Positions 44,009 through 53,654 of a stretch of DNA of 64,000 nucleotides are shown in pieces. The stretch comes from a bacterium (lineage in GTDB: Bacteria > Armatimonadota > Zipacnadia > Zipacnadales > UBA11051), in assembly GCA_030604405.1 (NCBI GenBank), contig JAUVVY010000003.1:1-64000 (forward strand). The letters run 5' to 3'. Every line of letters starts with the position of its first letter. The stretch's first letter is position 1. The notes under the pieces were generated by a model. That model saw only the letters and a program-made list of their open reading frames with translations. It was not told the DNA's origin and ran no database searches. The translations under genes and the position numbers were made by a program.

Positions 44009-47000
44009 ATCAACGCGTATGTCCTCGTTGCAGCCGTATTGATGTGCATAGCCCTCCCGACCATCGCGCAGGATGCTGACTATCCGCCGGTGGACAAGGA
44101 GCTTCCCGACGAGGAAGTTCTTCGCCTGGTCAGACCTGACTACCCGGGGCTGCAGGACTTCGCGGCCGCCATTGCGGCCAATGACCTTCCCAAAGCTCAC
44201 CGACTCCTCGTGGAGCATTTTGCCACACGCGAGAAGCCGTTTGTGCCGGAAGCCAAGTTCCCCGGCATCAGCGAAGGCAACTCGATGATAAAACTCAGAC
44301 ATGTCAGCAAACAGATTGCCGACGAGAAATGGCTCAAACACATCTTCACCCAGAGCAACAACGACAAGGGCGTTGTGGAAACCTACCAACTCGACCCGGT
44401 AATAAAGTGGATGGAAAATCCCAGCGAGTGCCGGACATGGATTCTGTATCTGAACCAACTTAACGTTGTCAACGCACTGGCAGGCCTCTACAACGATAGT
44501 GGTGACGAAAAGTATCTCGTCGAGGCCGGCAATATGGTGACAAGCTGGGTCGAGCAGTGCTACCGTGGCTACGGGTACATGCAGAACGGCAAGCTAGTGA
44601 CCTCGCACATGGAGATCCGCAACCGGATGTGTAACTGCATTGCGGCGTACGAGGTGTTGCGCAAATCCCCTGCGCTGACGCCCGAAATGCACATGGCGTT
44701 CTGGAAGCTGTTCATCGCTTCCGCGCGCGAGCTTATGACCTATACGGGCGTCTCCTATCCGGGCTTGATCCCTGTGGCAGTCATGTTCCCTGAATTCAGC
44801 GAGGCTCAAGCATGGCTGGCGCGTGGCGAAGAGAATATACACAACAGCCTGGTCGAGCGTACCACGCCTGAAGGCGCATGGGATACGCACTCGGTATCTT
44901 ACCAGATGGTCTCTGTCCCCTGGTCGGCCCGCAGCCTCGAGTTCCTGCAGGCCAATCCTGAGAGCGGCGATTTCGGCGAGCTTGCCGAAATGATCACGAC
45001 CCAGAGCGGCAAGCTGATGAGGATCATGCTGTGGCTGACCATGCCTAACGGCGGCTTGCCGAACATCGGCGACACCTACGGCCGCCGTGACTGGAGCAAT
45101 GCCACGCTGAGCATACTGCGATCCTACATTCACAGCCAGCTCACATCGGACCAGCAGGAGCGAGTCAACGCGATAGGGCATCCCTTCAAGCGCGCGAAAG
45201 CAGCACTGGCGCTGTATGAGGGCCATGATGGAGCGGAGCCGAATGCCACTTCGCTCGGCTTCCCGGGCACCGGCTACTATGCCATGCGCAGCAGTTGGGA
45301 GCCGGAGAAGGCCAGATACCTTTACTTCGACCTCTCGCCCCAGGCCCTGGGCCATGCTCACTACGATGCATGTCACTTTGACCTGTATGCCTACGGCAAG
45401 CCGCTGCTGTGTGACACCGCTGACTATTTCCTTGGGTGGGGGTACCGGACCGCGCTGCACAACAATATCGAGGTTGACGAGAAGATGTCACAGTGGGGCA
45501 CGCAAGTGATGCCCTGCGAGTGGCTGTCAACCGACCATTTTGACTTCGTGGACGGCGCCCATGCCGGGTTCCCGGACATCAATGTCACCCAGCGGAGAAA
45601 GATATTCTTCGTCAAGGGCAGCCAGCAGGGGTTCGGAGACTACTGGATTCTCTGCGACCTCCTCACCGGCGAAGGCTCTCACAAATATGAGCAGTTCTTC
45701 CACTTCGCCGGCCCGACGCAGCAACAGGGGGCGACCGCTGAAATAGAGCCGCAGACACTGGCAGCATTCAGCACGCACGAAGCCACTGCCAACGTCCAGG
45801 TCATTCCCGCCTACACCGACGGGATGCAGGCCGGCCTCGTCGAAGCCCAGGAAACCGAAATGCTCAAAAAGGACTGCATGACCCGCGAGGCGATGCTGGG
45901 CTGGATCGTGACCGCAGGCACCCACCAGCGCGTCAAATCCGCCGTCGCCGTCTATACCAGGGAAGGTGAGGTGCCGGTCAGCTTCTACGACGTGCTCTTT
46001 CCGACCCCCACCGGTGGCCAGGCGCAGATACGAGTGACGGCCTTGCCAGTCACTGAGGACGGTGCAGAGCTGCAGCCCACCGTCGCCGCCGGCCTGCAGA
46101 TTGAATGTACCCTCACCCGTCCCACGCATGACCTCGATTCCATAGTGATGGACCGTGGCGACAACCTCGCCGCAGACATGCCCGCCTTCGCAGAGATCAA
46201 CGAGACCAGCTTCACCGCCGGCACCGAAGAGCGGCTGACCGACGGCAAGCTGGGCGTCACCGTAATCGGTGAGGCAATGACTTCCGCGCCCTACACGCCT
46301 GGGACGGCACTCTCGGGTCATTTCGGGGTGGACTTCGGCAGGCCCGTAGAGATCAACACCATCATCCTGCACCACGGTACCTTCAATGGCAGCAGCATTA
46401 TCTACCCGCCGACCGAACTGGCCGTCCAGTACTGGGATGGCGCAGAATGGCAGGATGTTGCCAACGCCGAGACAACCTGGGAGCGCGACACGGCCACCAA
46501 CACGTTCTTCGACACGGTCACCACTGCGCGCATCCGTGCGCTCATAGACCGCCCCGCTGGTGGCCGACTCGCGATGCGTGAGATCCAGGCCTACCAGGTA
46601 AGCGCCGATGAGATCGCGAGGGTCGAGGCCTTGCGAGTCGAGACTACTACGAGCAACTGGACCGACTATTTCCTCATCTCCCATGAAGGGCCGGGATTGC
46701 GGAAATATGGCCGATTCTCATTCGACGGCGAAGTTGCTTTCATCCGGCAAGACACAACGGGAAAGGTCACGCAGGCATCTATAAAGAGTGGCGGAGTATT
46801 GCGCGAGGGGAGTCAGTTCGTGATAGGCAGTAACACGCAGCCCGATTATGTGACTGCCATCTGGCAGGGAGAGAGCATCTACATTGACTGCCCGGCCGCT
46901 GACTCCCTGGCCTTCCGCGCACAAGGCGCCCGGGAGGTCAGGCACGGCGACAAGCCCGTGTGGTCGGCTGCCCGACAGGACTTGCTCATTCTTGCCGGCA

Positions 47001-47314
47001 ACGTCGCGAGATTAGGACTGGGGATCAATAACCCTGTCGTTGATCTACATCCGCCGCAGGAGGGCTTGCACGGTGCTCAACCGTGGGCGGTAGTGACCTG
47101 GCAGACGCACAGGCCCGCCACTACGCAGGTCGAGTTCACCACTGACGACGGTCTGGTGCGCCGCACGATACTGGACACAGAGCTTGTTACCGACCACAGC
47201 GCTCGTGTCGAATTCCTGCGGCCGGACAGAGACTACACTTTCACAGCCATATCCGCAGACCAGGTGGGCACCAGGTCCCAGCAGACGGCGAAGATACAGG
47301 ATGTATCTGATTGA
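44009..47314 (+). CDS. Exported heparinase II/III-family lyase with discoidin and FN3-like domains
   Basis: About 1100 residues. An alpha/alpha toroid N-terminal half (about 20-400) is followed by the heparinase II/III catalytic/beta domain with LGHAHYDACHFDLYAYGKPLLCDTADYF (about 445-475). Near 740-860 an F5/8-type C (discoidin) sugar-binding domain appears (SGHFGVDFGRPVEINTIILH ... ARIRALIDRP). The C terminus (about 1010-1095) is an FN3/phosphatase-N-like sandwich. The best start seems to be ATC at 44009, eight bases after GAGGAG. It yields a perfect signal peptide (NAYVLVAAVLMCIALPTIAQ). The first regular starts, TTG 44039 and ATG 44042, cut that signal in half. It probably degrades acidic polysaccharide. 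Confidence 0.85.
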   Translation: MNAYVLVAAVLMCIALPTIAQDADYPPVDKELPDEEVLRLVRPDYPGLQDFAAAIAANDLPKAHRLLVEHFATREKPFVPEAKFPGISEGNSMIKLRHVSKQIADEKWLKHIFTQSNNDKGVVETYQLDPVIKWMENPSECRTWILYLNQLNVVNALAGLYNDSGDEKYLVEAGNMVTSWVEQCYRGYGYMQNGKLVTSHMEIRNRMCNCIAAYEVLRKSPALTPEMHMAFWKLFIASARELMTYTGVSYPGLIPVAVMFPEFSEAQAWLARGEENIHNSLVERTTPEGAWDTHSVSYQMVSVPWSARSLEFLQANPESGDFGELAEMITTQSGKLMRIMLWLTMPNGGLPNIGDTYGRRDWSNATLSILRSYIHSQLTSDQQERVNAIGHPFKRAKAALALYEGHDGAEPNATSLGFPGTGYYAMRSSWEPEKARYLYFDLSPQALGHAHYDACHFDLYAYGKPLLCDTADYFLGWGYRTALHNNIEVDEKMSQWGTQVMPCEWLSTDHFDFVDGAHAGFPDINVTQRRKIFFVKGSQQGFGDYWILCDLLTGEGSHKYEQFFHFAGPTQQQGATAEIEPQTLAAFSTHEATANVQVIPAYTDGMQAGLVEAQETEMLKKDCMTREAMLGWIVTAGTHQRVKSAVAVYTREGEVPVSFYDVLFPTPTGGQAQIRVTALPVTEDGAELQPTVAAGLQIECTLTRPTHDLDSIVMDRGDNLAADMPAFAEINETSFTAGTEERLTDGKLGVTVIGEAMTSAPYTPGTALSGHFGVDFGRPVEINTIILHHGTFNGSSIIYPPTELAVQYWDGAEWQDVANAETTWERDTATNTFFDTVTTARIRALIDRPAGGRLAMREIQAYQVSADEIARVEALRVETTTSNWTDYFLISHEGPGLRKYGRFSFDGEVAFIRQDTTGKVTQASIKSGGVLREGSQFVIGSNTQPDYVTAIWQGESIYIDCPAADSLAFRAQGAREVRHGDKPVWSAARQDLLILAGNVARLGLGINNPVVDLHPPQEGLHGAQPWAVVTWQTHRPATTQVEFTTDDGLVRRTILDTELVTDHSARVEFLRPDRDYTFTAISADQVGTRSQQTAKIQDVSD

Positions 47315-47512
47315 CACTGGCGGCAAGCTGTCATAACAGCTTGCCTGCGTATCACATATAACGTATAGAAGCGGCCCCGGATAGCGGGGCCGCTTCTTTG
47401 CTTGACTGTGAAAACAACTAGCCGGCGCGCTGTGGCGCCGGCGGAATCAGCCCGATTCTGAGCGGCTTGCAGCGGATGATATAACAGTGCCACGAACTGA
47501 GGAAAAAAGTCC
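47315..47512. other. Intergenic region before the dcw cluster
   Basis: Besides the terminator at 47369-47395, a perfect 8-base hairpin GCCGGCGC/GCGCCGGC stands at 47421-47442. On the minus strand it is followed by a T-rich run (TAGTTGTTTTC). No coding frame is convincing. Confidence 0.5.
47369..47395 (+). terminator. Intrinsic terminator of the heparinase-like gene
   Basis: AAGCGGCCCC (47369-47378) pairs perfectly with GGGGCCGCTT (47386-47395) and is followed by CTTTGCTTG. It separates the catabolic island from the dcw cluster. Confidence 0.85.
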
Positions 47513-47542
47513 TTGACATGGATCGCCGAAATCTCCTATCAT
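47513..47542 (+). promoter_or_regulatory. Promoter of mraZ1
   Basis: TTGACA (47513-47518), an 18-base spacer and TATCAT (47537-47542) lie about 110 bases upstream of the mraZ1 ATG. The long leader in between has no clear TGGG-type MraZ boxes. Confidence 0.65.
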
Positions 47543-47654
47543 AGCAAAGCTCCGGTATTACCTGGCAGCAACATATAATTTGCAGGCATCTGCCGGCAAT
47601 TCCTGGGTAGGTTAGTTAGCCTATCTGGACAACTATCAGCCAAAGACAACTCTC

Positions 47655-48161
47655 ATGCCAGCCGAAAAAGAGCAACCTGAAGCGCTCACCATCAACCGCC
47701 ACAGTGTTACCGAAACGCGCGTGACGCTGAAGCCAGAACATATTGACGTGGTCGGCACGGAAGTCATGCTTGCCTTCGGGCCACAAAAGTCAATTCTTGT
47801 CTTTGATCCGCCGAACTGGCAGAAATACTGCACGGCCACCAGGGAGGCGGCTGCCGTCTTGATCGAACTTGAAAGCCGCGAAGTGTATCGGCAGATGATC
47901 GCGACCGGCGCTCGCTCCACCATTGACGGCCAGAACCGGTTGCGGATCCCTCAGTCTCACATGGCCAGAGGCGAATTGTTCGATGAGAATGCCGCCGTTG
48001 ACATTCTACACATAATCTCCGACGACTGTCAATGGCTTGAGCTGTGGCCCGCCAAGGCATTGAGCGGCCCTTACGATGACGCCGATCTGTACAACAGGGC
48101 CTACGCCAAGTTGGTTGAAGGCACCAAGCAACGGGCCGAGGTGGGAGCGAATGCCCCCTGA
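47655..48161 (+). CDS. mraZ: MraZ-family transcription regulator, divergent copy 1
   Basis: 168 residues with two SpoVT/AbrB-like MraZ halves. The second half keeps IDGQNRLRIPQ, close to the family D-x-x-G-R-x-x-(I/L)-P pattern, but the first half (SVTETRVTLKPE) has lost the Asp-x-Lys-Gly-Arg motif. MraZ binds its own promoter and adjusts the dcw operon. The C-terminal tail is 30 residues longer than usual. It overlaps rsmH by 11 bases. A second mraZ lies at 50258 and is closer to consensus, so this copy may have changed target or become non-DNA-binding. Confidence 0.82.
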   Translation: MPAEKEQPEALTINRHSVTETRVTLKPEHIDVVGTEVMLAFGPQKSILVFDPPNWQKYCTATREAAAVLIELESREVYRQMIATGARSTIDGQNRLRIPQSHMARGELFDENAAVDILHIISDDCQWLELWPAKALSGPYDDADLYNRAYAKLVEGTKQRAEVGANAP

Positions 48162-49083
48162 CGGCCACCTTCACGCCCCTTGCATGCTGGCCGAAACCTT
48201 GAAAATTCTTGACCCTCAGCCCGGTGACGTACTTGTTGACATGACACTCGGGCTTGCCGGACATGCAACTGCGATCCTTGAAAAGACGGCAAAAGATGGC
48301 CCAGGCATACTGATTGATTGGGACGCCGCGATGCTGGCGGCGGCTGAAAAGCGACTTGCGGCCTACGGCGACAGGATCAAGCTTTTCAACCGCAACTTCA
48401 CGGAGCTACCGCAGATCATGGCAGAGGCGGGCATCGAGCACGCTGATTTAGCTATTCTCGATGCTGGCGTCGCCCTCCCTCAACTTCTCGATACTCAGCG
48501 CGGCTTTGGTTTTCAGGGCACGTCTTTGGCGATGAGCATGGCAGATCCTAATGACCCGCGCGCGGCCGACATTATCAACAGCGCGCCAGAGCCACAACTT
48601 CGCAGCATTTTGCGCAGCACTCAATCCGAGCATCGCAGTAAGCTCATCGCCAAAGCAATCTGTAGAGTTCGTCAGCGCAAGCCAATCGAATCGAGCAGTG
48701 AGCTTGCGGAGATCATCGCGGCGGCGGTGCCAAAGGGCCGCCGGAAGAGCAGCCGCCACCCGGCCACCGCAGCGATGTTAGCTTTCCGCATTTTCGCAAA
48801 CCAAGAGCTGGATAACCTGCAGGCCGGCGTGGAGGCGATGGCAGAGGCATTGAGGCCCGGGGCGGGAAGAATGGTCGTCCTGACTTACCATTCTCTGGAG
48901 TTCCGCATCACCCGTGACACCATACAACGGCTCGCGAGCGGACATGATATTCCGCCGTGGTTACCCGCGCCCGCTGACGCCAAACCACTAGTCAGAAGCC
49001 TGACTAAGAGGCCATTGAAGCCGTCCGACGCTGAAGCCACAACTTGTCGCAGTTGCCGGCTATTTGCCGCACAAGCCGTATAA
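48151..49083 (+). CDS. rsmH: 16S rRNA (cytosine1402-N4)-methyltransferase RsmH, divergent
   Basis: 310 residues with the RsmH frame: HAPCMLAETLKILDPQPGDVLVDMTLGLAGH (SAM site), DLAILDAGVALPQL, RHPATAAMLAFRIFANQELDNL and VLTYHSLEFR. Several near-invariant positions are altered. The usual LDMRMD reads SLAMSMA, DLGVSS reads DAGVAL and HSLEDR reads HSLEFR. It normally methylates C1402 of 16S rRNA. It could be a functional but relaxed enzyme, or one with another substrate. The ATG at 48151 is preceded by GGGAGCGA. Confidence 0.82.
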   Translation: MPPDGHLHAPCMLAETLKILDPQPGDVLVDMTLGLAGHATAILEKTAKDGPGILIDWDAAMLAAAEKRLAAYGDRIKLFNRNFTELPQIMAEAGIEHADLAILDAGVALPQLLDTQRGFGFQGTSLAMSMADPNDPRAADIINSAPEPQLRSILRSTQSEHRSKLIAKAICRVRQRKPIESSSELAEIIAAAVPKGRRKSSRHPATAAMLAFRIFANQELDNLQAGVEAMAEALRPGAGRMVVLTYHSLEFRITRDTIQRLASGHDIPPWLPAPADAKPLVRSLTKRPLKPSDAEATTCRSCRLFAAQAV

Positions 49084-49091
49084 GACAAGAA

Positions 49092-49110
49092 CCGGGCTGA
49101 TTTAGCCCGG
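49092..49110 (-). terminator. Terminator hairpin of minus-strand element A
   Basis: CCGGGCT/AGCCCGG with a five-base loop; on the minus strand TTCTTGTCTT follows. The matching hairpin in element B is at 50801-50819. It also lies just behind the rsmH stop and could act in both directions. Confidence 0.65.
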
Positions 49111-49345
49111 CTCTCATAGAACAGAGTACCTTGACAGAGATAGAGTTGCTCCAGTGCTTGGGTTTCCGGTCCCGTTCAGGCTGCGGTGTTCCGGAATTCC
49201 CGGCAGGTGGTGGGGTACGACAAAATCGTACCACCAGTTGCCATCAATGACGAAACTACATTCACAGCATAAATCACAGCAATGGCCAAACCAACGATCG
49301 CAGCAGTAGCAGATGTATAATAGCAAAACTCGCAGCATCGGTCAA
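49111..49345 (-). ncRNA. Element A: putative short minus-strand transcription unit
   Basis: A minus-strand promoter, TTGACC (49345-49340), 17-base spacer and TATTAT (49322-49317), would give a transcript of about 225 bases ending at the hairpin 49092-49110. The unit is repeated at 50820-51063 with the same predicted length. Conserved blocks include AGAGTACCTTGACA (49123-49136) and about 40 bases at 49161-49199. A short frame ending four bases before the hairpin shares IP-x-x-RSLNGTG-x-x-S with copy B, including a Ser coded TCT in one and AGC in the other. Copy A lacks a regular start codon inside the transcript, so small RNA and small protein are both open. Confidence 0.45.
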
Positions 49346-49446
49346 TGCAAGATTCTCTAGCCCCCAATAGTGCAAGTGCCTTCGCAAATGCTCCAGCGTC
49401 GTACCCCCCACCGCACTCTATCTCCGCAGTGCTTCGCGCTTGGTTG

Positions 49447-49543
49447 CGCTTTGTGACACCCGCATGCCTGCGGCGGCTCAGTCGCAAAGCGAATTATATC
49501 AAGTGAATCGATTGGCAAGGATTGATTCACAGGGGGCGAAATG
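49447..49543 (+). promoter_or_regulatory. Structured ftsL1 leader (conserved element, copy A)
   Basis: CGCTTTG (49447-49453) pairs with CAAAGCG (49485-49491); inside, CCGCA/TGCGG (49460-49473) closes a four-base loop. A second stem GTGAATC/GATTCAC precedes the SD AGGGGG (49531-49536) and the GTG start of ftsL1. Over 109 ungapped positions it differs from the copy at 51253 at about ten places by my count, far fewer than the neighbouring coding sequences. Confidence 0.6.
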
Positions 49544-49545
49544 CC

Positions 49546-50115
49546 GTGGGAGATGAAACGCTTGGTGTCGGTATCCAGTGGAAAACGATTCTTCGCATGT
49601 CAGTCGTTGGCATCTTGCTCATTGGTCATGTGACAGTTTGGACGATGGTCTCGCACTTCAGCCAGGAAAGCCGCCGGCTGGATCGTCTGATTGCTGCCGC
49701 GACAGAAATTCGCAGCGATCTGGCCCAGGAACGGGCCAAAATCTGCAACGCCACAGACCTCGAAGCCTTTGCTGTCACCCAACACATGGTGAAGGCGCCA
49801 GTCAACGGCTATGCTATTGCGGTCGGTTCCCTACCTGCCCCGGACAGTCCTGACACTACCGTAGCGAGTATCCAGCCGAGCACTCCTCCTGCTCGCGCCG
49901 TCGGAACAGCGGCCCAAGCCCCCACTCAGGCGGGCATGTTCGCCTACCAGGCCCAGCACCCACCAAGCCGCAAGCCCTTGACGCGCGCTGCCATGCCCGT
50001 AGCCCTGGCCACTGGCCTTTACTTCGTAGCGCTGCATCTGTTCCGGCGGAGATCTCGGCGCCCCACTTACCGCGTCCCACATCGCGACACGTTTCCTCTC
50101 AGCCATACCCAGTAG
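49546..50115 (+). CDS. ftsL: FtsL-like division protein, paralogue 1 (with C-terminal TM)
   Basis: About 189 residues. A cytoplasmic start, one TM helix (ILRMSVVGILLIGHVTVWTMV), then the FtsL-type periplasmic coil SRRLDRLIAAATEIRSDLAQE and DLEAFAVTQHMVKAP, which matches the family's closing (I/L)E-x-x-A-x-x-x-GMV-x-P. FtsL forms a complex with FtsB and FtsQ and activates FtsWI. Unlike its paralogue it has a long Pro/Ala linker and a second hydrophobic segment near the C terminus (AMPVALATGLYFVALHLF). The GTG start at 49546 is set by SD AGGGGG and is conserved in ftsL2. Confidence 0.75.
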   Translation: MGDETLGVGIQWKTILRMSVVGILLIGHVTVWTMVSHFSQESRRLDRLIAAATEIRSDLAQERAKICNATDLEAFAVTQHMVKAPVNGYAIAVGSLPAPDSPDTTVASIQPSTPPARAVGTAAQAPTQAGMFAYQAQHPPSRKPLTRAAMPVALATGLYFVALHLFRRRSRRPTYRVPHRDTFPLSHTQ

Positions 50116-50146
50116 GCAACTTCCAGGAAAGAATCTCCGAGCCCTA

Positions 50147-50175
50147 TTGACACCACAAGACAATACTCGTATAAT
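50147..50175 (+). promoter_or_regulatory. Consensus promoter of mraZ2
   Basis: TTGACA (50147-50152), exactly 17 bases, and TATAAT (50170-50175): a perfect sigma-70 consensus, the strongest promoter seen in the window. It should drive mraZ2 and the genes downstream. Confidence 0.85.
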
Positions 50176-50180
50176 GTGTG

Positions 50181-50250
50181 AAGCGTGGAAAAAGAGCGCA
50201 GAATTTGGATGAACATGGATATCAATTCCACCAGGTGCCTAAGCGTGGAA
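50181..50250. promoter_or_regulatory. Possible MraZ operator: repeated TGGA boxes
   Basis: AAGCGTGGAA occurs perfectly at 50181-50190 and 50241-50250, exactly 60 bases apart. Between them TGGATGAACATGGAT gives two TGGAT units ten bases apart, recalling the TGGGN5 repeats bound by MraZ. It lies between the promoter and the mraZ2 start codon, the usual place for MraZ autoregulation. Confidence 0.45.
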
Positions 50251-50257
50251 GGCTAAG

Positions 50258-50788
50258 ATGCCTCAGTCCTCGCAGCAGGACAACTTCATAAGCATAGACA
50301 TGACCACCCAGGTTGTGGACGGTAGTGGCCGAATCACGCTCAAACAGCCCCAGCGTGAACTGCTCGGGGACAAGGTTATATTGACGTACGGTGATAGCAC
50401 CTCCATGCGTATGTTCACACCTGAAGCTTTCGCGGAGAACACGGCGGAGATACTGGCGCTTCTGGACGACAATCGGCTCGACCCCGACTCCGACCAGATC
50501 CGACGCCAGATGATTGACTCCAGGGTGTCCTGCAATATAGACAGCCAGGGGAGGCTGCGGATTCCAGCCGGCTTCCTGACCCGCTCCGGTCTCGCCGATG
50601 CCAAGCAGCCCGAAGTCCAGATACTCTACCGGTCACAGATGGGGTACTGGGAAATCTGGCCAACGAAAGATGCCAACAAGCCTCTGGACCCAGGCGACCC
50701 GTTCTACCGGGCGCGCCGTCTGCTTAGCAACCGCGCACGCACACAGCAGGCAGCCTTATCGCACGATGCCGCCGAGGATACCTCTTGA
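50258..50788 (+). CDS. mraZ: MraZ-family transcription regulator, copy 2
   Basis: 176 residues with two MraZ repeats, VVDGSGRITLK and NIDSQGRLRIPAGF, both close to the D-x-x-G-R-x-x-(I/L)-P consensus, so DNA binding is likely preserved. It has a consensus promoter with repeated TGGA boxes in front. rsmH is not next to it, unlike in most bacteria: the gene is followed by element B and ftsL2. Together with mraZ1 it marks a tandem duplication of the mraZ...ftsL unit. Confidence 0.85.
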   Translation: MPQSSQQDNFISIDMTTQVVDGSGRITLKQPQRELLGDKVILTYGDSTSMRMFTPEAFAENTAEILALLDDNRLDPDSDQIRRQMIDSRVSCNIDSQGRLRIPAGFLTRSGLADAKQPEVQILYRSQMGYWEIWPTKDANKPLDPGDPFYRARRLLSNRARTQQAALSHDAAEDTS

Positions 50789-50800
50789 CAAAGCGGAAAA

Positions 50801-50819
50801 CCGGGCTTGGTTAGCCCGG
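50801..50819 (-). terminator. Terminator hairpin of minus-strand element B
   Basis: CCGGGCT/AGCCCGG with loop TGGTT; on the minus strand TTTTCCGCTTT follows. It corresponds to the hairpin at 49092-49110 and stands just after the mraZ2 stop. Confidence 0.65.
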
Positions 50820-51063
50820 CTTTCATTCACTAGAACCAGAGTACCTTGACACGCTAAGGGCTGCTTCATCGCTTAAGGTTCCGGTACCGTTCAGGCTGCG
50901 GTTCCCCGGAATTCTAAAGCAGGCGGGTGGGCGCGGCAACATCACACCCCCACTTGAAGGCAACGTGAATGCTTCGGTCACAGCATGCGTCAGACCAATA
51001 CCGAAGCCACCAGAGCCAGCAGCAGAGGTTGTATGATAGCACAAACCCCCCTGTGCCAGTCAA
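50820..51063 (-). ncRNA. Element B: putative short minus-strand transcription unit
   Basis: The counterpart of element A. TTGACT (51063-51058) and TATCAT (51038-51033) are 19 bases apart, a weaker spacing, and the predicted transcript again ends about 225 bases on at the hairpin. AGAGTACCTTGACA is at 50838-50851 and the second conserved block at 50877-50914. The short frame here could start at an ATG behind GGGGG and encode about 39 residues ending RSLNGTGTLSDEAALSVSRY plus a short tail. Coding is possible but not shown. Confidence 0.45.
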
Positions 51064-51252
51064 TGCAAACTTTGCAGCCACTGACGAAGCAACTGCCGCA
51101 GCAAGGCTCGCAGCACGCCGCGCCCACCCGTCGCAGCCTATCTTTGAGACCTGACCAATCCCCCCAGCGGAGGTTATCCTTTCTCTGGCACGTTGCTGGA
51201 GTCGAGGCCGTTGTGGGGCGCGGGACGGCTGCTTGAAACACATCCGATCGAC
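51064..51252. other. Spacer between element B and the ftsL2 leader
   Basis: About 190 bases with no recognised gene, twice as long as the matching stretch in copy A (about 100 bases). A 343-codon minus-strand frame crosses it but is mostly antisense to ftsL2 and not credible. Confidence 0.5.
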
Positions 51253-51349
51253 CGCTTTGTGACACCCGCAAGCCTGCGGCGGCCCAGTTGCAAAGCGAAT
51301 TACATCGAGTGAAGCAATTGGCAAGGCTTGATTCACAGGGGGCAAAATA
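51253..51349 (+). promoter_or_regulatory. Structured ftsL2 leader (conserved element, copy B)
   Basis: Same structure as 49447-49543: CGCTTTG (51253-51259) with CAAAGCG (51291-51297), and inner CCGCA/TGCGG (51266-51279). The loop changes from TGCC to AGCC while both stems are kept. SD AGGGGG and the GTG start of ftsL2 follow at identical spacing. No promoter is visible inside, so it acts as leader or operator within the operon. Confidence 0.6.
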
Positions 51350-51351
51350 CC

Positions 51352-51840
51352 GTGGGAGATGCAGCTCTTTTTGCCGGTATCCAGTGGAAAAGGATCCTTC
51401 GCACCTCCGTTGTTGGCCTCTTCCTGATAGGCTATGTTGCAGTTTGGACGAAAGTCGCGCACTTCAGCCAGGAAAACCGCCGGCTCGACCGGCTTGTTGC
51501 GGCTGAGACCGAGTGCCGGGCCGAACTCACGCGGCAGCGCACAGACATCTGCGATGTCGCAGAACTCGAACGCTTCGCAGCCACACACGGCATGGTCAAG
51601 GCGCCGGTCAACGGCCGCGCTATGTCGGTGCGTGCCTTCTCGCCGGCGGCTACAGATGACACTCGCGTGGCGGCTGTCATACCAGCCGCTGCAGAGGGTT
51701 ATGCTGTCAAAGCTGTTGCGCAAACGCCTGCTCAGAGCGGCGTTATCGCCTACGACTTCGGGCCGCGACCAAGCCAAAAGCCCCTGCTGCAAGCATGGCC
51801 TGAAGAGGCTGCGGCCAACGTCAACGCCATCCGACAATGA
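51352..51840 (+). CDS. ftsL: FtsL-like division protein, paralogue 2
   Basis: About 162 residues. TM helix LRTSVVGLFLIGYVAVWTKV, coil NRRLDRLVAAETECRAELTRQ and ELERFAATHGMVKAPVNG follow the FtsL plan. The C-terminal part is a Pro/Ala-rich tail without a second TM helix. It overlaps ftsI by four bases (ATGA), the normal ftsL-ftsI arrangement, so this is the better candidate for the classical FtsL. The paralogue at 49546 may have taken another role, such as that of FtsB. Confidence 0.78.
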   Translation: MGDAALFAGIQWKRILRTSVVGLFLIGYVAVWTKVAHFSQENRRLDRLVAAETECRAELTRQRTDICDVAELERFAATHGMVKAPVNGRAMSVRAFSPAATDDTRVAAVIPAAAEGYAVKAVAQTPAQSGVIAYDFGPRPSQKPLLQAWPEEAAANVNAIRQ

Positions 51841-53654
51841 TGCAGGGAGGGGACGCCACTTTGCACACCCGGGCGTATCCGCATCACTCATATCCGCCCC
51901 AGGTCGAGTCCGAAGAGACCTACAAACCACAGCGGCGCCGAGCACTCTTGCTACGTCGCCTGGCGCTTGTGGCGCTGACCCTTATTGCACTGCGCCTGGG
52001 TGAGATTCAGCTAGCCAGGAGCAAGTATTACCTCCACTACATAGCTCCCCAAGTCACCGCTCAGCCCCGCACGGCCAAGGCAGTGCCCGGCAGCATTCTA
52101 GCCCGTGACGGCACTGTGCTGGCGCAGAGCATATACTCGTACACCCTCGTCGCCAACCCCGTCCGCATGGCCGAAAAGAAGGAGCCTGTTGCCGGCGTCG
52201 CTCACCAGCTTGCCCAGATCATCAACAAAGACGAAACCGTCATCAGGGCTGCACTCGAGGCTCGCCGTAGTAAAGAGTACGTCGTGCTGCAACAGTGGCT
52301 TGAAGCCGACCAGGTGCCCGCTATCCGTGAGGCCGACGTCTGCGGTATCAGCCTTGATTCGTCTTACAAGCGTCATTACCCGAACGGTACTCTGGCCTGC
52401 CATCTGCTCGGGGCCCGCAATCAGTTTCACATACCCCTCTGCGGCCTTGAACATCGCTATCGCCTGCTGCTTGACGGCAAGCCTTCTGCGGTGGCATCAA
52501 TCACTGACAGTGCCGGCAGCCCCACTCTCGGCCGGGACGACACGGTGCTGCCCGCCGTCGCCGGTTTCGACCTCATGCTGACTCTGGACCTCGGGCTGCA
52601 GCGCTACGTCGAGGCGAGGATAGACGCGCTGTGCGAACGCGAAGCCCCGAGAAGCGCTTCTGCCCTGGTTATGAAAGCCTCGACCGGAGAAATCCTTGCC
52701 ATCTGCTCCCGTCCTGAATTTGATTCCAACATGCTGGCCTCTGGTGCCGACGCCGACAAAGCCGCCCGCAAGGCATTCAAGCAGGAGCACACCTGCAACG
52801 CCGTCGTGGAGAAGAATTTCGCGCCCGGTAGCACGTTCAAGATACTGCTTGCAGCCGCCGCACTGGAAGCTGGCATAGACCCGGCGCGGCAGTTCTTCTG
52901 CCCGGGCCACTACGACGCCGGCGGCCAACCCATAAGCTGCTGGGGCAGGTACCGCACCCAGGGCCACGGCTACGTCAACATGGAACGTATGGTTGCGATG
53001 TCTTGCAATATTGCAGCCGCCAATATAGCGTTGGACCTAGGACCGCATCGCTATACTGCTTTCTTGCGCGAAGCCGGCATTGGCACGCCATCCCGTGCCG
53101 GATTTCCCGGCGAAACAGCGGGCTTCCTCGCCGATCCGGAGACACTAAGCAAGCGCGATCTGGCAGTCATGGGCTTTGGCCAGAGGGTGAGCACCAGTGC
53201 TCTGCAGCTCACCGCTGCAGTCGCCGCCATTGCCAACGGCGGGGTCAAGATGCATCCCCACATCATTGCGGCGGTTCTGAACAAGGACGGGACGATATTC
53301 CGGCGTCCGAATCTGCCAGAGCCGGTGCCTGTGTGCAGCGAAGAGACCGCGAAGGCCGTCCTCAGAATGATGGAGGCCGCGGTTGATTACGGCACCGCTC
53401 GCACCGCCGCAATCGAGGGCGTGCCAGTAGCCGCTAAGACGGGAACAGGGCAAATCTGGAACCCGCGGACGCGCACATTCTATGCCGGCAGGTACCTTAC
53501 CTCGTTTCTGCTCATCTGTCCGGCTGATAATCCTGAATTCGTGGTTTACGTCGCTGCTGTTGAGCCGCAGGTGGGCGAGCATGGAGCCGATGTCGCCGGC
53601 CCTACTGCCCGTGACATTGCCAGCTTCGCCCTGCGACAGGTTGTCAATCCCTGA
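51837..53654 (+). CDS. ftsI: Division-specific peptidoglycan transpeptidase FtsI (PBP3/class B PBP)
   Basis: 605 residues. One TM helix near 37-55, a dimerisation domain from about 75 (PGSILARDGTVLAQ), and a transpeptidase domain with S332-TFK (catalytic Ser), S389-C-N391 and K534-TGT. There is no PASTA domain. It cross-links septal peptidoglycan in the periplasm together with FtsW, activated by FtsQLB-type proteins. The start ATG overlaps the ftsL2 stop. Confidence 0.95.
   Translation: MMQGGDATLHTRAYPHHSYPPQVESEETYKPQRRRALLLRRLALVALTLIALRLGEIQLARSKYYLHYIAPQVTAQPRTAKAVPGSILARDGTVLAQSIYSYTLVANPVRMAEKKEPVAGVAHQLAQIINKDETVIRAALEARRSKEYVVLQQWLEADQVPAIREADVCGISLDSSYKRHYPNGTLACHLLGARNQFHIPLCGLEHRYRLLLDGKPSAVASITDSAGSPTLGRDDTVLPAVAGFDLMLTLDLGLQRYVEARIDALCEREAPRSASALVMKASTGEILAICSRPEFDSNMLASGADADKAARKAFKQEHTCNAVVEKNFAPGSTFKILLAAAALEAGIDPARQFFCPGHYDAGGQPISCWGRYRTQGHGYVNMERMVAMSCNIAAANIALDLGPHRYTAFLREAGIGTPSRAGFPGETAGFLADPETLSKRDLAVMGFGQRVSTSALQLTAAVAAIANGGVKMHPHIIAAVLNKDGTIFRRPNLPEPVPVCSEETAKAVLRMMEAAVDYGTARTAAIEGVPVAAKTGTGQIWNPRTRTFYAGRYLTSFLLICPADNPEFVVYVAAVEPQVGEHGADVAGPTARDIASFALRQVVNP

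Follow-up and report, generated by a model that had tools for sequence, protein, structure and literature searches.

Gene organization at the head of the dcw cluster

We analyzed a 64,000-nucleotide stretch of DNA (hereafter, the window) from a bacterium of the class Zipacnadia (Armatimonadota), focusing on the doubled head of its division and cell wall (dcw) gene cluster and on a spacer element, which we named E, located upstream of each of the two ftsL genes. By a protein search against named genomes, the near relatives belong to Candidatus Zipacnadia / candidate division WS1 of the Armatimonadota. The class name was introduced on the basis of genomes from marine sediments, in a paper in which cell division is not treated (PMC10290634). 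The window is the start of contig C61 of a draft genome of 4.37 Mb in 96 contigs, labelled G000, and its gene order was compared among five genomes of the genus, including G001, G002, G003 and G004. The genes are arranged in the order mraZ1-rsmH-E1-ftsL1-mraZ2-E2-ftsL2-ftsI, and all of them were found where the initial annotation had placed them. The alternation of two mraZ and two ftsL genes, the presence of the same intergenic element in both units, the retention of rsmH in the first unit only and the overlap of ftsL2 with ftsI, which that annotation had described, were all confirmed. The genes and spacers are the following:

47655-48161, plus strand: mraZ1, a divergent MraZ paralog, as judged from the Pfam MraZ score, alignment, tree and ratio of nonsynonymous to synonymous substitution rates (dN/dS)
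48151-49083, plus strand: rsmH (mraW), single copy; PF01795, 242.6 bits; above the TIGR00006 cut-off (212.4 bits in this equivalog test; cut-off, 154.3)
49084-49545, plus strand: spacer element E1, the first copy, homologous to rsmH-ftsL spacers across the class; matched by the R1 model at 49186-49407
49546-50115, plus strand: ftsL1, assigned by position, a hydrophobic segment near the N terminus and similarity to the single FtsL of G002, G003 and G004
50258-50788, plus strand: mraZ2; Pfam MraZ, 33.6 bits; dN/dS 0.21
50789-51351, plus strand: spacer element E2, the second copy, homologous to E1
51352-51840, plus strand: ftsL2, overlapping ftsI; its N-terminal half is converted by ftsL1 in G001, not here
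51837-53654, plus strand: ftsI (transpeptidase); PF00905, 209 bits; it begins the unduplicated remainder of the dcw cluster

MraZ1 and MraZ2 share 31% identity and FtsL1 and FtsL2 52%, whereas E1 and E2 are 51-90% identical in windows and 79% identical across a 300-nt stretch extending into ftsL. Both ftsL genes have a GTG start codon, each preceded by AGGGGG. The search of related genomes for the same double unit, proposed as a check in the initial annotation, revealed the identical order in G001, the second species of the genus. Since the copies are strongly different, and since G001, which was assembled separately, shows the same order with orthologous copies, an assembly artefact is ruled out and the double unit is real.

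The MraZ and FtsL paralogs

Both MraZ proteins exceed the curated cut-off of Pfam PF02381 (23 bits; the score of MraZ1 is 28.0), and neither of them reaches the NCBIfam equivalog cut-offs. In MraZ2 both DNA-contact motifs of the DxxxR type are kept (DGSGR and DSQGR). In MraZ1 the N-terminal DxxGR is shortened to TETR and the C-terminal DGQNR is intact, as in its orthologs in the genus. The earlier proposal that mraZ1 had lost a DNA-contact motif therefore holds for the altered N-terminal motif, but this is not a fresh loss following the present duplication, because the short motif is present in every MraZ1-type protein of the genus. In the MraZ tree, the type-1 proteins of G000-G004 form one clade (support 99/98), and both types fall within a single genus-specific clade (100/97); support for the MraZ2 clade as such is weak (84/41).

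The following promoter elements were predicted upstream of the two mraZ genes:

47513-47542, plus strand: mraZ1-rsmH promoter, TTGACA-18-TATCAT, without MraZ-box-like repeats
50147-50175, plus strand: mraZ2 promoter between ftsL1 and mraZ2, a perfect TTGACA-17-TATAAT, identical in G001
50186-50219, plus strand: MraZ-box-like 10-bp repeats downstream of the mraZ2 promoter, with TGGA at 50186, 50206 and 50216

A near-consensus promoter is located at a similar position before mraZ1 in G001, G002, G003 and G004. In other bacteria, MraZ boxes and direct repeats have been described at mraZ promoters (PMC8475190). Putative tandem boxes of the kind expected for MraZ autoregulation are present at mraZ2 in three species, as TGGA/GTGGG repeats with a 10-bp period (p of about 0.005 here, 0.02 in G001, and 0.02 in G003, where they read GTGGAAAACCGTGGGGATATGTGGG), and not at mraZ1, where a 10-bp TGGA/TGGG array was looked for at the promoter and none was found.

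The products of ftsL1 and ftsL2 each have a hydrophobic segment at residues 23-44; together with the gene order, which places them between rsmH and ftsI, this fits the short bitopic membrane protein expected of FtsL. The profile cut-offs for FtsL are not reached: FtsL1 scored 12.4 bits with TIGR02209 (cut-off, 42.45), FtsL2 gave no match, and there was none in Pfam for either. The scores of the relatives are equally poor, and, as the profiles miss them all alike, we call these products FtsL-like by place and shape. The longer tail of FtsL1 contains the additional C-terminal hydrophobic segment that had been noted as an added transmembrane segment. This segment can be observed in both G000 and G001, but in G001 it contains arginines, and the dN/dS of the tail is 0.70, as compared with 0.43 for the core. 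For FtsL2 the corresponding values are about 1.2 for the tail and 0.29 for the core, the FtsL2 value being disturbed by conversion; the dN/dS values, all for G000 versus G001, were obtained with a simple counting method. The FtsL tails are thus under little constraint, and that of FtsL1 under weak constraint. The dN/dS of MraZ1 is 0.33, and both mraZ genes and both ftsL cores are thus maintained. The view that the event is old and that both copies have been retained is borne out.

In G001 (L022:3909-4583), the ftsL1 frame stays open across the mraZ2 promoter and stops farther downstream, and a frame change near the end of ftsL2 shortens that gene.

History of the double unit

Comparison within the genus points to two separate events. 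G003 has the order mraZ2-mraZ1-rsmH-spacer-ftsL-ftsI, in which both mraZ types lie side by side and a single ftsL is present; G004 contains one type-1 mraZ and one ftsL, and G002 has mraZ1-rsmH-spacer-ftsL on a contig that ends immediately upstream. MraZ1 and MraZ2 are the older paralogs, because G003 has both of them before a single ftsL. As judged from these gene orders and the tree, mraZ was doubled first, ftsL and the spacer were doubled later, and the two pairs do not derive from one tandem duplication. The later duplication of ftsL and the spacer implies that the present order needs complementary loss. In the first event, a duplication of mraZ in the stem of the genus would have given mraZ2-mraZ1-rsmH-E-ftsL-ftsI, the order kept by G003. 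In the second, a G003-like block would have been duplicated in tandem in the ancestor of this species and G001, after which mraZ2 would have been lost from the first copy, and mraZ1-rsmH from the second. The outcome is a pair of units that each comprise a separate promoter, a different MraZ type, a copy of E and an ftsL gene; MraZ2, with its putative boxes and perfect promoter, now stands before ftsL2-ftsI, and rsmH has moved to the MraZ1 unit. We infer that block duplication with complementary loss is the simplest path, and a likely one. A search for duplicated mraZ in the literature library used here found no paper on the subject.

The initial annotation was right that the copies differ strongly; however, they did not diverge by simple drift. 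Sliding windows show that copy 2 of G001, along the spacer and ~80 codons at the start of ftsL, is 82-96% identical to copy 1 of the same genome and also matches copy 1 of G000, whereas its identity to copy 2 of G000 is 55-68% across most of the stretch; within the spacer, the identities to copy 1 of G001 and copy 2 of G000 are 85-96% and 55-67%, respectively. In the downstream ftsL tails, all 66 of the 66 informative sites follow the copy. This pattern of identity marks a tract of gene conversion in G001, by which the spacer together with the front half of ftsL has been homogenised.

The explanation offered in the initial annotation was a single old tandem duplication of mraZ-rsmH-spacer-ftsL, followed by division of labour, with FtsL1 acting as FtsB or as a regulator. 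It accounts for the alternation of two mraZ and two ftsL genes, and the hydrophobic segment in the FtsL1 tail of both species would agree with it; but the single ftsL beside both mraZ types in G003, the lower identity of the MraZ pair than of the FtsL pair and the spacers, and the conversion between the ftsL copies speak against it. Moreover, the check for a separate ftsB found an FtsB/DivIC candidate directly behind eno (26-28 bits, slightly below the cut-off of 28.9), so that FtsL1 is not needed as FtsB, and its replacing FtsB is unlikely. We consider this explanation as a whole very improbable.

Distribution and structure of the spacer element

The rsmH-ftsL spacer measures 300-600 nt in ~35 genomes belonging to the order, as well as in G041 and G042, which represent two further families of the class. 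It contains two inverted arms, one G-rich and one C-rich, separated by 130-200 nt. In G043-G045 and the other Armatimonadota inspected, rsmH almost directly joins ftsL, or the spacer lacks such an element. The arms can pair in a long-range helix (P0), which is preceded by a hairpin (H1):

49164-49196, plus strand: H1 hairpin of E1, with the loop CGUUCAGGC; lowest-energy fold
49206-49221, plus strand: P0 left arm of E1, pairing with 49398-49412 in the long-range helix
49398-49412, plus strand: P0 right arm of E1, in the long-range helix
50880-50911, plus strand: H1 hairpin of E2; lowest-energy fold
50922-50937, plus strand: P0 left arm of E2, unlike E1 in sequence and pairing with its own right arm
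51117-51132, plus strand: P0 right arm of E2, the partner of 50922-50937

Covariation in P0 was tested on 27 distinct arm pairs, using shuffled partners (500 shuffles) and slid partners as controls. Paired cells amounted to 94.1%, as compared with 74.0±1.3 with shuffled partners, and cells changed on both sides numbered 70 as against 20.3; kinship among the genomes inflates these pairing and covariation numbers. The covariation itself was 0.638, as compared with 0.264±0.021 after shuffling, a value that none of the 500 shuffles reached, and the slid controls, which retain the kinship, gave at most 0.174. In a separate test by permutation of the right arms, own partners formed 11.4 of 12 pairs and swapped partners 8.9, with 9.7 as the highest value in 5000 permutations. 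These results demonstrate that the predicted P0 helix is conserved, and that both copies keep the pairing despite changed arm sequences.

E1 and E2 each fold alone into H1 and P0, with z-scores against shuffles of -2.0 and -5.0, respectively. The minus strands gave -2.2 and -2.6, so that folding energy alone leaves the strand undecided. In a stem search that scored G-T and A-C alike, G-T occurred 21 times and A-C 7 times in P0, an excess that would favour the plus strand as the acting RNA.

A covariance model (R1) built from family f5 only found the element at rsmH-ftsL in f1, f2, f3, f4, f6, f7 and f8; its match to E1 is given above, and E2 was matched only in part. The YCAGGC loop of H1 also recurs in other families. 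Elsewhere in the genome no further full copies were found, only repeat arrays without P0, and several of the weak matches of the model are repeats inside coding sequence (e.g. in G005:C44). Rfam gave no match at E<=1 in positions 47000-53000 of the window, and none at gathering score in seven related loci.

Two further candidates were rejected. A kissing interaction of the H1 loop (CAGGC) with a GCCTG hairpin farther downstream has a conserved upstream motif and an inconsistent downstream one, and the frames of a putative small protein on the minus strand, read by eye, do not correspond between the two copies.

Repeats and an antisense promoter in the P0 loop

The loop closed by P0 is rich in A and C and contains CAGC units that recur predominantly every 12 nt, with harmonics at 24 and 36. 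Two features of the E1 loop were identified:

49262-49336, plus strand: UCRCAGC repeats, at 49262, 49274, 49298 and 49330
49317-49345, minus strand: antisense sigma70-like promoter, TTGACC-17-TATTAT

A Rho-utilisation site would agree loosely with the composition of the loop (an excess of C over G and a spacing near 12), but Rho has no need of a conserved heptamer. A near-consensus sigma70 promoter on the minus strand is present in the loop of f1, f2, f3 and f6, about 51-63 nt inside the right arm (extremes 34-83), and is absent in f5.

This promoter may yield an RNA antisense to the left arm and to the end of rsmH. An invertible promoter switch was considered and rejected, as the promoter lies on the minus strand in all families carrying it.

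Repeat arrays before other division and wall genes

Arrays of the same repeat were also found in other leaders, which were sampled and not surveyed genome-wide. In the genomes of the class, a blind search for pairs of TCRCAGC units at a spacing of 11-13 nt gave ~3 times as many matches as the reversed pattern, many of them within genes. At intergenic sites with a downstream neighbour, the array was in the sense orientation to that neighbour in 16 of 19 cases, and in ten of these 16 it ends no more than about 31 nt before the start codon (often 12-31 nt). Many of the downstream genes serve division or wall synthesis. Among them, with names from sequence inspection and not from profile searches, are murA (twice), ftsB, sepF and smc, genes for a SPOR-domain protein, for a protein of the FtsW/RodA type and for an AMIN-type amidase, the gene of the DNA methyltransferase that follows ftsK (in four species), and several for surface proteins or polysaccharides. 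Examples are L157 (murA, contig C47 of this genome), L122 (methyltransferase behind ftsK, contig C6 of this genome), L115 (ftsB), L169 (sepF) and L172 (ftsW-like).

In 29 genomes from across the class, the best sense array before sepF scored 5.41, as compared with 2.67 for antisense and 2.71 for shuffled sequences; before murA the values were 3.57, 2.18 and 2.60, respectively. In the recA control they were 2.43, 2.45 and 2.43, and in the aroA control, a weak one because coding sequence often lies directly upstream, 2.57, 2.88 and 2.48. The repeats are enriched on the sense strand before sepF and murA, and not before recA or aroA. The sepF array extends into the ribosome site (e.g. ACGCAGCAATCAGTCGCAGCAAAGGAGGG), which fits a possible action on mRNA.

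In G049, from another lineage of the phylum, arrays also precede murA and an ftsW-like gene (L126, L172). As G049 lies outside the class, the repeats may predate the P0 helix. In the rsmH region of the same genome (L173), the RsmH frame holds a repeat-like TCGCAGCTAACATCACAGC, which may be chance coding.

Direct repeats 11-13 bp apart are typical of regulators of the WalR/MtrA/PhoB type, and in the WalR/VicR and MtrA regulons direct repeats about 11 bp apart control wall and division genes on DNA near promoters. It could therefore be proposed that E works as DNA, with such a factor bound to the repeats and the arms serving as further protein sites or as an old switch around the antisense promoter. 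The spacing and the target genes are similar, several leader arrays follow a promoter, and the antisense promoter has a fixed place in the loop of four families. The repeats described here, however, are almost always in the sense orientation and often end at the ribosome site; in addition, the arms covary pairwise while their sequence drifts, which is not expected of a protein site, G-T is more frequent than A-C in P0, and the constant orientation of the loop promoter in every genome having it leaves no inverting switch. Action as DNA seems to us unlikely, although it deserves to be taken seriously.

Alternatively, P0 could be mainly a processing or insulating structure, for instance an RNase III site, at which the transcript is cut into an mraZ-rsmH part and an ftsL-ftsI part; the loop repeats would then be secondary. 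The constant position of the element between rsmH and ftsL and a helix of 12-16 bp or longer are compatible with this, and uncoupling the mRNA of a regulator from that of the divisome would make sense. Nevertheless, it leaves the regular repeats unexplained, and likewise those before sepF, murA and ftsB, where such a helix is lacking; we regard it as improbable.

Comparison with known systems

The mraW RNA motif is positioned upstream of mraW. This motif (RF01746; Actinomycetales, another phylum) is likewise a candidate for a conserved RNA in this gene neighbourhood (PMC2864571). It is tied by name to mraW, whereas E is located after rsmH and before ftsL, and E1, E2 and their relatives match no Rfam family. 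In Streptococcus pneumoniae, control of division genes through the 5' untranslated region by KhpA/KhpB (EloR) has been proposed for ftsA (PMC6403258). The likeness to E lies in the RNA-level control of a division gene via its leader, which is proposed here as well; unlike E, no repeat array or long-range helix is described for that system (PMC6403258). Compared with the standard mraZ-rsmH-ftsL-ftsI head, the cluster analyzed here has the same gene content, order and strand, and MraZ-box-like repeats at the mraZ2 promoter as described elsewhere (PMC8475190), but it differs in having two MraZ types and two ftsL genes, in that rsmH is not coupled to the MraZ2 promoter, and in the long structured spacer that separates rsmH from ftsL.

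No tRNA or tmRNA was found in the window. Upstream of mraZ1, a large gene (44039-47314) reads like a heparinase-type or secreted polysaccharide enzyme and is unrelated to the cluster.

Proposed role of element E

We propose that E is a class-wide structured leader, consisting of H1 followed by P0, which would close a mostly unpaired loop of 130-200 nt with UCRCAGC repeats ~12 nt apart. E would act as RNA, in cis, on ftsL; a trans-acting factor would read the repeats, and P0 would present or hide them, tuning the output of ftsL-ftsI together with that of other division and wall genes. For these uncultured bacteria, such a mechanism is inferred from comparison of genomes. E may be considered a candidate for a previously undescribed structured element of the dcw cluster, linked by its repeats to division and wall leaders. 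Taken as a whole, a two-event history of the cluster together with E as a cis-acting ftsL leader, belonging to a set of division and wall leaders read by a trans factor, is the account that we consider rather probable, by a modest measure.

Several points weigh against this account. The antisense promoter in the loop of several families is unexplained by a pure leader model, and the P0-loop repeats are located 100-200 nt before ftsL, unlike the sepF array at the ribosome site. The arrays are not universal, since the strict threshold was passed by 12 of 29 sepF and 5 of 38 murA leaders. The G-T excess is small and comes from related genomes, and the helix alone is no proof of RNA, as a DNA inverted repeat would look alike. 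Finally, no convincing scars of the lost mraZ2 or mraZ1-rsmH were found at the junctions, so that the path of loss is not demonstrated.

A broader and more tentative proposal, which we find doubtful, is that the element between rsmH and ftsL represents the most elaborate case within a so far undescribed regulon of Zipacnadia, and perhaps of other Armatimonadota, that works post-transcriptionally. One RNA-binding factor would read the UCRCAGC arrays in the leaders of division and wall genes, and the helix at ftsL would make the array a switch.

The two-step history suggests how a supposedly rigid cluster may come to consist of two units with separate promoters. The dcw cluster is among the most studied bacterial gene clusters, yet its control at the RNA level is little understood, and a covarying, class-wide rsmH-ftsL element that was duplicated with ftsL makes such control testable. 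The repeats shared with the leaders of sepF, murA, ftsB and other genes suggest, moreover, a way to find a division and wall regulon in unculturable bacteria.

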